Virus record (IMG/VR): IMGVR_UViG_3300037247_000336
Location: 1 to 45,956 of that record
Direction: 5' to 3' (one strand)
Origin: a virus
Length of the DNA stretch: 45,956 nucleotides
The notes below the pieces were generated by a model, which saw only the letters and a program-made list of their open reading frames with translations, was not told where the DNA came from and did no database searches. Positions 1,594 through 45,956 of this stretch are shown piece by piece. The position numbers and the translations under genes are program-made. How positions within the stretch are numbered: the first letter of the stretch is position 1; each line of letters opens with the position of its first letter.

Positions 1594-1733
1594 TGGCATA
1601 TAATCCAGGCCGCGTAAGCACAACCTATTATTGCTACGACTGTAAAACAATTAAGTTCGTATGCAAGTGGTACGAGGAAGCGTTTGGCGACCTGTGTGAT
1701 GATTGCGCCCGGAAGCGTGGATTATTGTGGTAG
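1593..1733 (+). CDS. Zinc-ribbon micro-protein, copy 3 (short form)
   Basis: 46 aa, one of the shortest members. ATG 1593 overlaps the ATPase stop (TAATG). Ligands are C14/C17 (CYDC) and C35/C38 (CDDC), then ARKRGLLW-stop. C24 is extra. An in-frame upstream ATG at 1470 lies inside the ATPase and is rejected. The short form shows that about 30 residues between and around the pairs are enough for the fold. It sits between helicase-like ATPase and polymerase genes. Confidence 0.88.
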   Translation: MAYNPGRVSTTYYCYDCKTIKFVCKWYEEAFGDLCDDCARKRGLLW

Positions 1734-1741
1734 ACCTAGTC

Positions 1742-3940
1742 ATGCCGCTGGCTACCAAGGCGGGAGGCACAGGCCAGCCAGCCACATGTAAGGGCTGTCC
1801 ACTGTACGATATCGGCAAGGGTTTCGTGCTAGAGCCTGCTCCGGTCTGGTCGAAGATAAAGATGGCTATTATAGGCGAGGCCCCCGGCACCAACGAGGTA
1901 CTACAAGGCAAGCCATTCGTTGGCAAGGCGGGGTGGTGGCTGCTCCGCAACATTCTAAATCCGGCAGGTCTGAAGAGAGAGGAGGTCTATCTTGACAATA
2001 CTTTGCGCTGCTTGCCCCCTAAGAACAAGCAAGGTGAAGCGTACCCGGTGGGAGTTGATAAAGCTCAGGCTGAAATGCATTGTCGCCAGTACGACAGAAC
2101 CATACCCGCCTCCGTGCCTATCATGCTGGTTGGCGGCAAGGCGCTTGGACAGAGATTAGGGCTGAAAGGCATATCGGATTGGCATGGGCATGTCACCTTC
2201 CAAGGCGGGCAACTGGTTGGTTGTACGTTTCATCCCTCGGCTGTGATGAGACAGCCGAACCTACTGCCTGTCGCCATACGTGAGCACTACAACCTGCTCA
2301 CAGCCCATGCCAATCCATCCATCTTGAAGCATCCCAAAGTCCGGAGGGGTGGCCTAGTCGATGGGCCGGGGCCGATGGTGTTTGACTTGGAGTGGGATAG
2401 AAAGACGAAAGAAATTAGCTGTGTGGGGGTAGCCTATGAAGCGGCAGAAGCATACTCAACCTACGATGTGGAATATGGCAGGCAAGTGTTGGCCGACCGG
2501 CTTGCTCGTTCTGAGTTACTCATTGGTCACAATATCATTGATGCCGATTTCCCTGTTCTCGGTAAGCATCCTACTAGCTACCATCCCGATTGCGTATTTG
2601 ATACTAAGGTGGTTGCTCATCTCATCCACGCCCATCTCGCCAACCTCAGTCTCCTTGGACTACGTTCGCTGGTCTCGTACTATAGACCGACGACAGGTTG
2701 GAAGGAGGCCAAGGATGATTTGCTTGAATATAACGGGCGGGACTGCGCCTACAACTTCTACCTCTACGAGCAGCTCAAGGCCGACCTCACCGCCACCAAC
2801 CAGTGGCACTTAGTAGAGAAGCAGCAGCGACTGGCTAGGCTGGCTGTGCTGATGAGGGAGCGGGGAGTTGACATCGACCTGAGAGCAGTCAGGCGTTACC
2901 ACAAGGAGTGGAAGGGCAATAAGCAGTTGCTGAAGGATGACTTTCCGTTCAACCCGAACTCGCCGAAGCAGGTCATAGAGTTCTTCAAAGAGGAAGGCAT
3001 CTCGCTACGAGACACCAAGGAAGTGACCGTCAAGAGGCAGGCTGACCGGCACCCGTTGATGGAGCAGTTGGCTGACTATAAGGAGCTAGGCGTCAAGCCC
3101 ATCACGACCTGGTTCCCGCTAGGCAAGAGTAAGGTACATCCGACCTTCAATGTGACCGGGACAGATGTGGCGCGGTTCAGCTCGTCAGAGCCGAACTTCC
3201 AGAACATCCCGCCATCTCTGCGCCGGATGATAGTGGCGCTGGAAGGCATGGTCATTGTGGGACTGGACTTCTCGCAGATTGAGAACAGGTGTGTGGCGTG
3301 GCTGGCGGGCGATAAGCAGATGTTGGCTGACTTCGCTAGTGGTATGGACTTTCACCGGCTCTCAGCGAGCCGAATCTACAACAAGAGGTGTGATGATGTC
3401 ACAAACAAAGAACGCTATGAAGGCAAGAAGACTATCCATGCGTCTAATTATGGAGAGCTTCCTGCAAATCTCGCTGAGAGACTGTTTGGCAACCGTAAAG
3501 GCGACTCGCTCCGAGCTGCTGAACGGTTACAGAGTGCGTATTTTTCTGTCTATCCGGCCATTAGAGAATGGCAGACTAGGGTCAGCGACGGTCTTGAGCA
3601 AGGAAGTATCACTCTAGTTAATCCGTTCGGGAGAGTGAGGTACATCTATGGACAGGATGCTCATACACGGAAGAAGAAGGGCTGTCACTACTACGGGTGC
3701 TCTACTGCTGCTGACATTGTCAATCAGCGGGTTCTGGATATATGGCAAGAAGAAGCGCTCGTTCCTATCCTTATCGTACATGACGAACTTGTGTATTGCC
3801 TACCTGTTGGTACGGCAACAGCTACAATCTCACGTCTCAAAGATATTATGACGCAGCCTGTCAAGGAGATGGATGGGTTGGTAGTGCCTGTGAAGGCAAA
3901 GGTTGGTGCGAACTATGGCGACTTACGAGATTCTAGATAA
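1742..3940 (+). CDS. DNA polymerase I family (PolA) with N-terminal family-4-type uracil-DNA glycosylase domain
   Basis: 732 aa from ATG 1742; GTG 1727, nested in the end of copy 3, is an alternative start. Residues 16-185 are a UDG family 4-like domain: Fe-S cysteines C16, C19, C90, C114; GEAPG at 45-49; PFVGKAG; and HPS at 164-166. Residues 212-345 are a 3'-5' exonuclease (D215/E217, GHNIIDADF 262-270, Y330/D334). Residues 360-732 are the polymerase: motif A DFSQIE 509-514, motif B around KKTIHASNYG 562-571, motif C HDE 680-682. The O-helix reads R558-x3-K562-x3-H566-x3-Y570, so His stands where E. coli Pol I has Phe762. This is the replicative polymerase. Confidence 0.93.
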   Translation: MPLATKAGGTGQPATCKGCPLYDIGKGFVLEPAPVWSKIKMAIIGEAPGTNEVLQGKPFVGKAGWWLLRNILNPAGLKREEVYLDNTLRCLPPKNKQGEAYPVGVDKAQAEMHCRQYDRTIPASVPIMLVGGKALGQRLGLKGISDWHGHVTFQGGQLVGCTFHPSAVMRQPNLLPVAIREHYNLLTAHANPSILKHPKVRRGGLVDGPGPMVFDLEWDRKTKEISCVGVAYEAAEAYSTYDVEYGRQVLADRLARSELLIGHNIIDADFPVLGKHPTSYHPDCVFDTKVVAHLIHAHLANLSLLGLRSLVSYYRPTTGWKEAKDDLLEYNGRDCAYNFYLYEQLKADLTATNQWHLVEKQQRLARLAVLMRERGVDIDLRAVRRYHKEWKGNKQLLKDDFPFNPNSPKQVIEFFKEEGISLRDTKEVTVKRQADRHPLMEQLADYKELGVKPITTWFPLGKSKVHPTFNVTGTDVARFSSSEPNFQNIPPSLRRMIVALEGMVIVGLDFSQIENRCVAWLAGDKQMLADFASGMDFHRLSASRIYNKRCDDVTNKERYEGKKTIHASNYGELPANLAERLFGNRKGDSLRAAERLQSAYFSVYPAIREWQTRVSDGLEQGSITLVNPFGRVRYIYGQDAHTRKKKGCHYYGCSTAADIVNQRVLDIWQEEALVPILIVHDELVYCLPVGTATATISRLKDIMTQPVKEMDGLVVPVKAKVGANYGDLRDSR

Positions 3941-28520: not shown

Positions 28521-28530
28521 ACTGCTTATT

Positions 28531-28595
28531 TGGAATTAGTCTAAGTATAATTCTAAATTGCGTACAATGGAATTAGTTTTAGAATAATTCTAAAT
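28531..28595. repeat. Two 28-bp operator-like direct repeats
   Basis: 28531-28558 and 28568-28595 match at 25 of 28 positions with a 9-base gap (37-bp period, close to 3.5 helical turns). The second copy contains the perfect palindrome TTAGAATAATTCTAA; the first has a weakened version. The arrangement resembles paired operators or iterons in front of the divergent operons. Confidence 0.6.
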
Positions 28596-28647
28596 AAGGA
28601 GACAGGCTGGCTATAGGTAGGCTGCCTACATATAAGGAACAGACAAG

Positions 28648-29254: not shown

Positions 29255-29382
29255 GGCCCTCAACGTGCTAGGCGTGCATCTATTGCTCCGGTCAGTCAAC
29301 GGCCATCGAATTGCTTGCCCAAGCATTTGCCATACCAAATCACAAACGGCCACTGAAATGCTTGCCGAGCACGTTGATGGCC
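29255..29382. repeat. Nested inverted and direct repeats between divergent promoters
   Basis: 29255-29269 and 29368-29382 are 15-base inverted repeats matching at 14 positions. Inside them, 29299-29319 and 29346-29366 are direct repeats matching at 18 of 21, and AAGCATTT (29321-29328) mirrors AAATGCTT (29356-29363). There is no reading frame here. It looks like an operator array or a replication origin. Confidence 0.6.
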
Positions 29383-29393
29383 GAAGAAAACAC

Positions 29394-29421
29394 TTGACAA
29401 ACGATTTTTTTCTGGTAAAGT
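29394..29421 (+). promoter_or_regulatory. Strong promoter in front of the large RNA candidate
   Basis: TTGACA (29394-29399), 16-base spacer, TAAAGT (29416-29421), with a T-run in the spacer and TGG before the -10. The predicted start is near 29428, right at the first hairpin of the non-coding region. Confidence 0.82.
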
Positions 29422-29427
29422 CGGAAA

Positions 29428-30130
29428 AGCCGCGAGAGAAAACGCGGCGAGAGAGATAGGGCCATAACCGGAAACATCTGATAGGCTAAGGGTAGCAAGC
29501 GAGGTGAAAGCTACTCAAGTAAGCTATGCTAGTGACCTAGCCTCACTATCACAGACACCGGCACGGTAGCCGTACTCCAGCAGGCAGCCTACCCACCCTA
29601 CTCCAACAAGCTAAGCTAGTGTGGTAGCCGTGGACAGACTGACCGGACGACCTACTGAACATCCTCAAGTTAGACTGTTGCACCCTCACTCCGAGAGTAG
29701 CCAACAACTTCAAGGCTGTGCAACGCATGCTACGGGTAGGCCCAAACCTGAGCGCCACTTAATCAGCTATGTCTAGCTCAGCACACCACAAGACGGGCTA
29801 GCCGAGTATAGCATCCCGCAAGCTACCTAACAGGTAGCAAGCACGCCTTAGTAGAGCACTCCGCAAGTGAGGCGAACTGACTAAGGCAAGAGCAGGGATA
29901 GGCTAGGCGCTGGTAAAGAGATTCTCTTAGAGATGCCGAGCGCCCCATGAGTCAAGGCTAGTGCATACTGTGGGTTCCGTGGCTGTCCGAGAGAACCGAT
30001 AAGGTCACTCCAGTCACATGAATTTAGAGGGCTACGGTCAGTGGTATCCGCCGCTGAAAGAGCTAACCTGCTGGGTTAGACACCGATGGCCCTCACTATC
30101 TCCTCACCTAGAGTGAGGACAGCAGGACTA
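29428..30130 (+). ncRNA. Candidate large structured non-coding RNA (about 690 nt)
   Basis: No plausible gene lies here in any frame. The sequence behind the promoter is packed with perfect short helices: GCCGCG 29429-29434/29443-29448; GTAGC 29492-29496/29510-29514; GCTAG 29528-29532/29537-29541; GTTGCAC 29677-29683/29718-29724; GCTACCT 29822-29828/29832-29838; GCCTTAGT 29845-29852/29880-29887; GGCGCT 29906-29911/29939-29944 enclosing AAGAG/CTCTT; GGTTC 29973-29977/29993-29997; GAGGGC 30027-30032/30089-30094 enclosing CTAACC/GGTTAG; CCTCAC 30102-30107/30113-30118. Size and style resemble the large phage RNAs GOLLD and ROOL; homology to either is unproven. The 3' end is not defined. Confidence 0.72.
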
Positions 30131-30151: not shown

Positions 30152-30361
30152 ATGACAAGTAAGGATTTCAGTATACTCGCCAAAGCCTTCAGAGCGAGAC
30201 GTGACTGTGCTTGTGATGAGATTGAGGCCATCCAACGAGCCACAGACATTTGCATGGATGTGCTTAAAGTCTTAAACCCCCGCTTCAATAGGGGTAAGTT
30301 TATGAACACCATCAGAGGCAACAAGGCGTTCAGCAGATACGATGGGGTCGAGAGGTACTAA
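30152..30361 (+). CDS. Hypothetical small helical protein
   Basis: 69 aa from ATG 30152 with ribosome site GAGGAGA 8 bases upstream; an in-frame ATG at 30086 lies in the RNA candidate and is rejected. Helical, with RRDCACDEIEAIQRATDICM and LNPRFNRGKFMNTI. It is the first gene of the plus-strand accessory block. Family not recognised. Confidence 0.8.
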   Translation: MTSKDFSILAKAFRARRDCACDEIEAIQRATDICMDVLKVLNPRFNRGKFMNTIRGNKAFSRYDGVERY

Positions 30362-37427: not shown

Positions 37428-37456
37428 TTGACATTCTATTCATAGTGTGCTATACT
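37428..37456 (+). promoter_or_regulatory. Promoter of the RecB/Cas4-like gene (leaderless)
   Basis: TTGACA (37428-37433), 17-base spacer, TATACT (37451-37456). The ATG at 37463 falls where transcription should start (7 bases after the -10), so the message is predicted to be leaderless or nearly so. Confidence 0.82.
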
Positions 37457-45441: not shown

Positions 45442-45956
45442 CAGACGCCCGACCAATCCCTCGATGCCTATTCACGAGATGATAGACCGCTCGGCCATTG
45501 ACCGCCGTGAGGTCTATATCACCGGAGTCATCAACCCCGAAGTCCAGTACTATCTGACTCGCATCCTCTCTTTCTTGGCAGAGGACTCGAAGAAGCCTAT
45601 CAACATCATCCTCAACACTCCAGGCGGATTAGTGGCTGACGGGCTGGCTATCTTTGACCTACTCAAGAGTATAACTACGACCCGTAAGACTCCCATCAAC
45701 ATCATCGCCACGGGTCAGTGCATGAGTATGGGGGCCATCATCCTCCAAGCCGCGACCAAGCGATTCGCCACAGCCCACTGCTCGCTCGGTCTGCACGAAC
45801 TCTCGGCTGCAAATGTCGGCTCGTTCTCCAGCACGGAAGATACCCAGAAAGAGATTCGGAGAACTCAAGGCACCCTCAACGACATTATCACAGCTCGTAC
45901 TGGCATGACTAAGAAGAAGCTGCAAGGACTTATCGCTCGGCGAGACCGGGTGTTCA
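45419..45956 (+). CDS. ClpP-like serine protease, N-terminal part (continues at position 1)
   Basis: The frame opens at ATG 45419 (AAAGGAG upstream), 23 bases inside the previous gene, and runs off the contig; it continues over the repeat to 177. N-terminal basic extension (PRYKRHSRRPTN), then REVYITGVINPE, ILNTPGG (64-70), catalytic Ser103 in GQCMSMGA and His126. In phages ClpP-fold proteases often process capsids, but this one sits in the early block on the strand opposite the capsid. Confidence 0.92.
   Translation, partial: MPRYKRHSRRPTNPSMPIHEMIDRSAIDRREVYITGVINPEVQYYLTRILSFLAEDSKKPINIILNTPGGLVADGLAIFDLLKSITTTRKTPINIIATGQCMSMGAIILQAATKRFATAHCSLGLHELSAANVGSFSSTEDTQKEIRRTQGTLNDIITARTGMTKKKLQGLIARRDRVF
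45830..45956. repeat. Terminal overlap, right copy (circular contig)
   Basis: Identical to positions 1-127; see the left copy. It should be counted once, which gives a unit genome of 45,829 bp. Confidence 0.9.

Follow-up and report, generated by a model that had tools for sequence, protein, structure and literature searches.

The DNA analysed here (the window) is the whole of a virus record 45,956 bases long, the first 127 of which are identical to the last 127 (1–127 and 45830–45956). Because the ends are identical, the genome is probably complete and either terminally repeated or circular, and the record most likely covers the entire genome, about 45.8 kb in length. The clade to which it belongs consists of tailed phages with genomes near 46 kb, and the collection searched contained no close named phage. 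The genes are arranged in two divergent blocks: a leftward block of structural genes, including terminase, portal and major head protein, and a rightward block of early or replication-type genes, which starts at 30152, passes over the record ends and reaches a PolA-type DNA polymerase (1703–3940). The region described here (29428–30130, about 690 bases) lies at the point of divergence, where the rightward unit begins. No tRNA genes were found in the 46-kb genome, this region included. A long AT-rich near-palindrome is also present between the divergent blocks (28522–28601), with an energy of −42.7 kcal/mol when folded with its flanks.

Directly ahead of the region, on the plus strand, the first-pass annotation had placed a strong promoter, TTGACA-N16-TAAAGT, and this assignment was borne out by both the sequence and its relatives. 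The element (29394–29421) is an extended −10 σ70-type promoter with TG before the −10 hexamer; TTGACA, the 16-nt spacing and TG-n-TAA are retained in 6/6 genomes and the spacer sequence is variable. Read directly from the sequences, the first hairpin of the region starts about 7–8 bases past the −10 element in all relatives, and at 29429, 8 bases past it, in the window. Upstream of the promoter is a repeat array (29255–29382), largely conserved in the alignment of the relatives, which contains an imperfect inverted repeat with 25-nt arms (29255–29279 and 29358–29382) and a 22-nt direct repeat (29298 and 29345). These repeats likely represent operator or regulator sites and lie outside the RNA.

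At the other end, the region runs up to a ribosome-binding site (AGGAGA, 30140) and the first early ORF on the plus strand (30152–30361, 69 aa), for which the family search returned no match. We found no terminator-like site between 28800 and 30800. As a terminator is lacking and the RNA abuts the ribosome-binding site of the first gene, the RNA probably forms the 5′ portion of the early transcript, as a leader or a processed segment, and is probably not a gene of its own. The gene that follows varies: its product has 69 aa in the window and 54 aa in the relative L021, and is a membrane-like protein of 48–49 aa in the others. Since the RNA is retained next to different first genes, it is probably not a regulator of one particular gene.

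Seventeen different short plus-strand ORFs (open for about 63–129 codons) were observed with a zinc-finger-like CxxC ... CxxC/H arrangement and a near-identical C-terminus, approximately CARxxGLLW followed by the stop codon. Their stops end at 625, 1733, 4082, 31447, 33553, 33717, 34004, 34590, 37223, 37426, 38420, 38621, 39611, 39781, 40716, 41176 and 43787. Six of the 17 were searched in Pfam and PHROGs, with no confident family match; the sequences suggest that the 17 belong to an expanded family of small early phage proteins whose C-terminal tail is fixed. The early unit also contains strong extended −10 σ70-like promoters on the plus strand at 37428, 38623, 41184 and 41746, the first three of which begin within a few bases of the stop codons of such ORFs.

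Comparative evidence for a structured RNA

Using terminase as bait, we gathered six related records, in five of which (L021–L025) the region is present. It occupies the same site in six phage genomes of one clade, the window included, with 71–78% identity between lineages. Identity to the window is 78% for L022 and L024, 71% for L023 and 74% for L025, which is cut by the contig end. L021 is 100% identical over 1288 bases up to window position 29987 (near 2217 of L021, reverse strand), and about 90% identical thereafter, with an insertion of about 195 nt. This switch in identity falls inside domain D of the RNA and looks like a recombination point.

Folded as a single sequence, the window region gave −254.9 kcal/mol compared with −232.2 ± 7.3 kcal/mol in dinucleotide shuffles, and the resulting z of −3.1 is modest taken alone; the convincing evidence is comparative. 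The RNAalifold consensus of five distinct sequences, one of them truncated and with many pairs invariant, contains 147 pairs in 24 helices, with 35 two-sided compensations by the RNAalifold count. The first-pass annotation had reported at least 12 stems, a number that is an undercount. In an independent count, 96.9% of cells were paired and 36 pairs carried two-sided compensatory changes, compared with 17.4 ± 2.7 (0/500) in shuffles that ignore relatedness and for a structure derived from the same sequences. When the partners were slid by 1–3 columns, the number of two-sided pairs dropped to 3–5. Domain A (97.4% of cells paired) showed 14 two-sided pairs compared with 7.3 shuffled, and domain C (98.7% of cells paired) 8 compared with 2.0, each with 0/500.

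As the pair shuffles ignore relatedness and the structure was taken from the same sequences, we added column shuffles within gap and conservation classes. These gave z values of −9.0 for domain A (with the 5′-terminal hairpin P1 included), −6.1 for domain C and −5.4 for domain D, and 0/100 shuffles reached the observed energy. Eight stretches of the terminase gene from the same phages, processed identically as a control, gave z values between −1.25 and +0.98 on the sense strand and between −1.7 and +1.5 on the other strand. The antisense strand of the RNA alignment also scores well, as helices do. Among pairs predicted on both strands, G-U cells exceed A-C cells (14 versus 5; 11 versus 1 in domains A and C), which assigns the RNA to the plus strand, in agreement with the promoter direction. 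Unpaired columns are invariant in 57% of cases in domain A and 65% in domain C, compared with 41% and 45% of four-fold codon sites in terminase, which suggests that loops and junctions are under sequence constraint.

No ORF of at least 50 codons is common to the homologues in any frame of the ~690-base region. Conserved coding frames, which the first-pass annotation had named as evidence against an RNA, are thus not shared by the homologues, and its description of a stretch with no convincing gene stands, as the region also holds no tRNA and no Rfam match. Compensatory changes are found throughout the collected homologues, and the covariation across five homologous loci strongly supports the proposal of a large structured RNA behind the promoter. 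Altogether, we consider it almost certain that the region encodes a real structured RNA.

Architecture and distribution of the RNA

The RNA begins with hairpin P1 (29429–29448), whose invariant 8-nt loop AGAGAAAA is exposed in ensemble folds. Two-sided changes occur at 5/6 of its stem pairs and four different stems surround the invariant loop, making P1 one of the clearest single helices. The loop motif GAGAGAAAA occurs once in the genome, with no second copy. Domain A (29458–29599) is multi-branched, closed by AGGG/CCCU, supported by covariation and marked by the invariant sequences CCGGAAACAUCUG and CACAGACACCGG. Domain B (29610–29782), defined by the alignment and by covariation, consists of a long closing helix (29610–29628 with 29766–29782) around a variable arm. 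Both sides of this helix change at 4/5 inner pairs, and its stem reads GUAGC/GCUAU, GUGGC/GCCAU, AUGGU/ACCAU, GUGAG/CUCAC and AUGGG/CCCAU in five genomes. Domain C (29786–29973) is the most conserved core, with covariation support and 57 pairs in 8 helices. It is followed by domain D (29974–30099), which carries variable arms, among them a helix (30027–30037 with 30083–30094) and a hairpin (30063–30079). The last conserved element in the alignment is the 3′ hairpin UCCUCAC-CUAGA-GUGAGGA (30101–30119), the stem of which reads CCCGC/GCGGG in L021 and CCCAC/GUGGG in L022. Directly 3′ of it lies the near-invariant linker GCAGGACUAUACCAA, whose start is 29–31 nt from the ribosome-binding site and start codon in 5/5 genomes that reach it, the window included. 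All of these elements are on the plus strand. With the first hairpin starting at 29429 and the last conserved one ending at 30119, the boundaries initially drawn at 29428 and 30130 are accurate to a few bases. The minimum-energy fold of the window also contains a long-range helix that would close the entire RNA (29458–29464 with 30084–30090); mismatches break it in L022 and L024, and we do not claim it. The tetranucleotide CTAG occurs at 11.4 per kb in 29428–30130, compared with 3.9 per kb in the remaining genome, i.e., about three times more densely.

Across the clade the RNA measures about 640–930 nt (about 690 nt in the window), and the differences in length correspond to whole arms gained or lost, with the core retained. 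In L024 the arm of domain B lacks about 100 nt, domain D of L023 contains two replacement arms, and the ~195-nt insertion of L021 forms an extra self-complementary arm in domain D (−105 kcal/mol when folded with its flanks). On the predicted fold, these arm-sized insertions and deletions are the pattern of a structured core with an expandable periphery.

The first-pass annotation had offered two identities for the RNA, a divergent member of the GOLLD/ROOL group or a new class. A search with 4227 Rfam models gave no match at the gathering threshold in the region and two chance-level matches at a relaxed threshold, including no model match for group I or group II introns or for other catalytic RNAs in Rfam. 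A weak match to the Mu-gpT-DE model (E 0.003, below the gathering score) reflected mainly the shared ribosome-binding site and start codon and was rejected. The GOLLD model (RF02032) had no match at E ≤ 10 in the six genomes and none in cmscan, relaxed thresholds included. The ROOL model (RF03087) also had no match in a search whose control set likewise contained no positive, so that this negative leans on cmscan too. The search with GOLLD, ROOL and other covariance models thus came back empty, and, as there is also no tRNA nearby, a divergent GOLLD or ROOL is not supported, whereas the suggestion of a new class is.

We built two covariance models, R1 for domain A and R2 for domain C. Both were run against 24 sources, among them distant terminase relatives, the non-coding region of ICP1 and a region of phage K, and matched the six members only; a 15-bit R2 match in L030 squeezes the model into 75 nt and is not credible. 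The RNA was absent, by nhmmer and covariance model, from the terminase relatives L103–L113 (22–47% identity), the nearest of which, L103, is a fragment of 9 kb that would stop short of the RNA region. The whole records of ten distant relatives gave no match to the covariance models in a search that had no positive control, and the terminase scan of genome contigs yielded none. Motif scans of IMG/VR and GTDB genomes revealed no member beyond the clade, and a viral scan with the domain C pattern returned known members only. Matches from the first motif scan (L033, L035, L037 and L039) were judged to be chance by eye and BLAST, those from the second (L042–L102) by nhmmer, and those of a two-element pattern in viral contigs (L114–L123) and in bacterial or archaeal genomes (L124–L144) by nhmmer and inspection. 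On the strength of these scans, the RNA class is rare among the collections searched (IMG/VR and GTDB genomes).

Possible roles and comparison with known RNAs

Its place at the head of the early operon would have the RNA made in the first minutes of infection, a timing that points to host takeover or early expression. We tentatively favour, at slightly under even odds, a trans-acting function, in which the RNA would be released from the early transcript as a particle or RNP scaffold of the ornate-RNA type. This reading is favoured because size and complexity match those of OLE, GOLLD and ROOL, because unpaired nucleotides of the core are invariant and because the downstream gene is exchangeable. 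Its transcription would begin at +1 of the early promoter, with the rightward early transcript carrying it as the 5′ segment, and large amounts would presumably be produced as infection begins. It could then be released, or protected from the downstream mRNA, through nuclease processing, and serve in trans as a structural RNA or as the scaffold of an RNP, much like OLE, GOLLD and ROOL. Contacts would be made by the invariant loop and junction nucleotides, and the peripheral arms could vary freely. We found neither a partner protein nor a tRNA nor a known oligomer-interface motif. The fuller proposal, that this is a new ornate RNA class unrelated to GOLLD, ROOL and OLE whose members, as the first product of the early transcript, form a particle or RNP that aids takeover of the cell, is plausible and is put forward with slightly more reserve.

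The main rival, nearly as likely as a scaffold or particle and likewise at less than even odds, is a cis-acting leader of the early operon, which would act in processive antitermination, as do lambda nut, HK022 put and EAR, or in protecting or tuning the early mRNA, with P1 as the recognition site. Such a leader would account for an RNA that starts at +1 of the operon and reaches the first ribosome-binding site with no intervening terminator, for its retention while the downstream gene varies, and for the invariant loop and covarying stem of P1, as expected of a protein-bound element. However, terminator-like sites in the operon are not in excess (8 found on both strands, compared with 9.8 expected by chance) and several further strong-looking σ70-like promoters lie downstream, so that antitermination has no evident need. 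The single occurrence of the loop motif leaves the leftward operon without a second site. The invariant UCUCC is predicted to occlude the ribosome-binding site in the window and L023, but not consistently in the other genomes, and we rejected such occlusion. The RNA is also far larger than known elements of that type, lambda nut, HK022 put and EAR being several-fold to ten-fold smaller.

An early counter-defence or host-takeover decoy that binds a host enzyme, such as RNA polymerase, a nuclease, the ribosome or a defence protein, seems unlikely: a predicted first product of the early transcript, confined to one phage clade and with variable arms on a conserved core, is compatible with such a role, but the RNA has no likeness in Rfam to host, CRISPR or toxin-antitoxin RNAs at relaxed thresholds. 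Even less probable is a replication primer or origin transcript resembling ColE1 RNA II, in which case the upstream repeats would belong to the origin; repeats and inverted repeats do lie immediately ahead of the promoter, at the point of divergence, but they are equally consistent with an operator, and there is no clear GC-skew switch at that point. The least probable explanation is that an intergenic stretch or a degenerate coding sequence folds by chance, to which the modest single-sequence score might be ascribed; this is contradicted by the covariation, the coding controls, the conserved promoter and the absence of ORFs shared by the homologues.

Large structured phage RNAs are few. GOLLD is a homo-oligomeric nanocage, and the structures of GOLLD and ROOL have been solved, whereas their roles are, to our knowledge, still unknown. 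With hundreds of nucleotides, many covariation-supported helices, no ORF and a phage genome as its carrier, the RNA described here belongs to the same loose kind of large ornate phage RNAs, within which it would form a new class that differs by its position at an early promoter. Annotation that relies on Rfam overlooks RNAs of this kind in uncultivated phages. GOLLD is a large structured non-coding phage RNA of hundreds of nucleotides with a conserved part and a more variable remainder, and both GOLLD and ROOL are often located near tRNAs (PMC12286853). The present RNA resembles GOLLD in being a large phage RNA with such a division into conserved and variable parts; in contrast, the GOLLD model has no match here, the genome is without tRNAs and the RNA heads an early operon. 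ROOL is likewise phage-borne, with an ornate secondary structure and a length similar to that of this RNA (PMC12286853), but here its model has no match and there is no tRNA island. OLE RNA, of about 600 nt, is ornate and forms an RNP (PMC9723947). It is similar in size to our RNA, but it derives from extremophilic or anaerobic Gram-positive bacteria rather than phages, and the present RNA has no Rfam match. In Vibrio phage ICP1, an abundant RNA of about 800 nt is located between gp139 and gp140 (PMC7567579). This RNA is also ORF-less, of similar size, from a genome without tRNAs and without a family assignment; however, R1 and R2 do not match the ICP1 region, and the ICP1 RNA adjoins a lysis cluster instead of an early promoter. 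With lambda nut, HK022 put and EAR, the RNA shares its place at the head of an operon, between the promoter and the first gene without a terminator, and a hairpin with a conserved loop; it differs in having no Rfam match and no second site in the genome. As an RNA unrelated to GOLLD and ROOL and of the same size, whose start is defined and whose fold is supported by covariation, it would provide an independent case of a large structured phage RNA.
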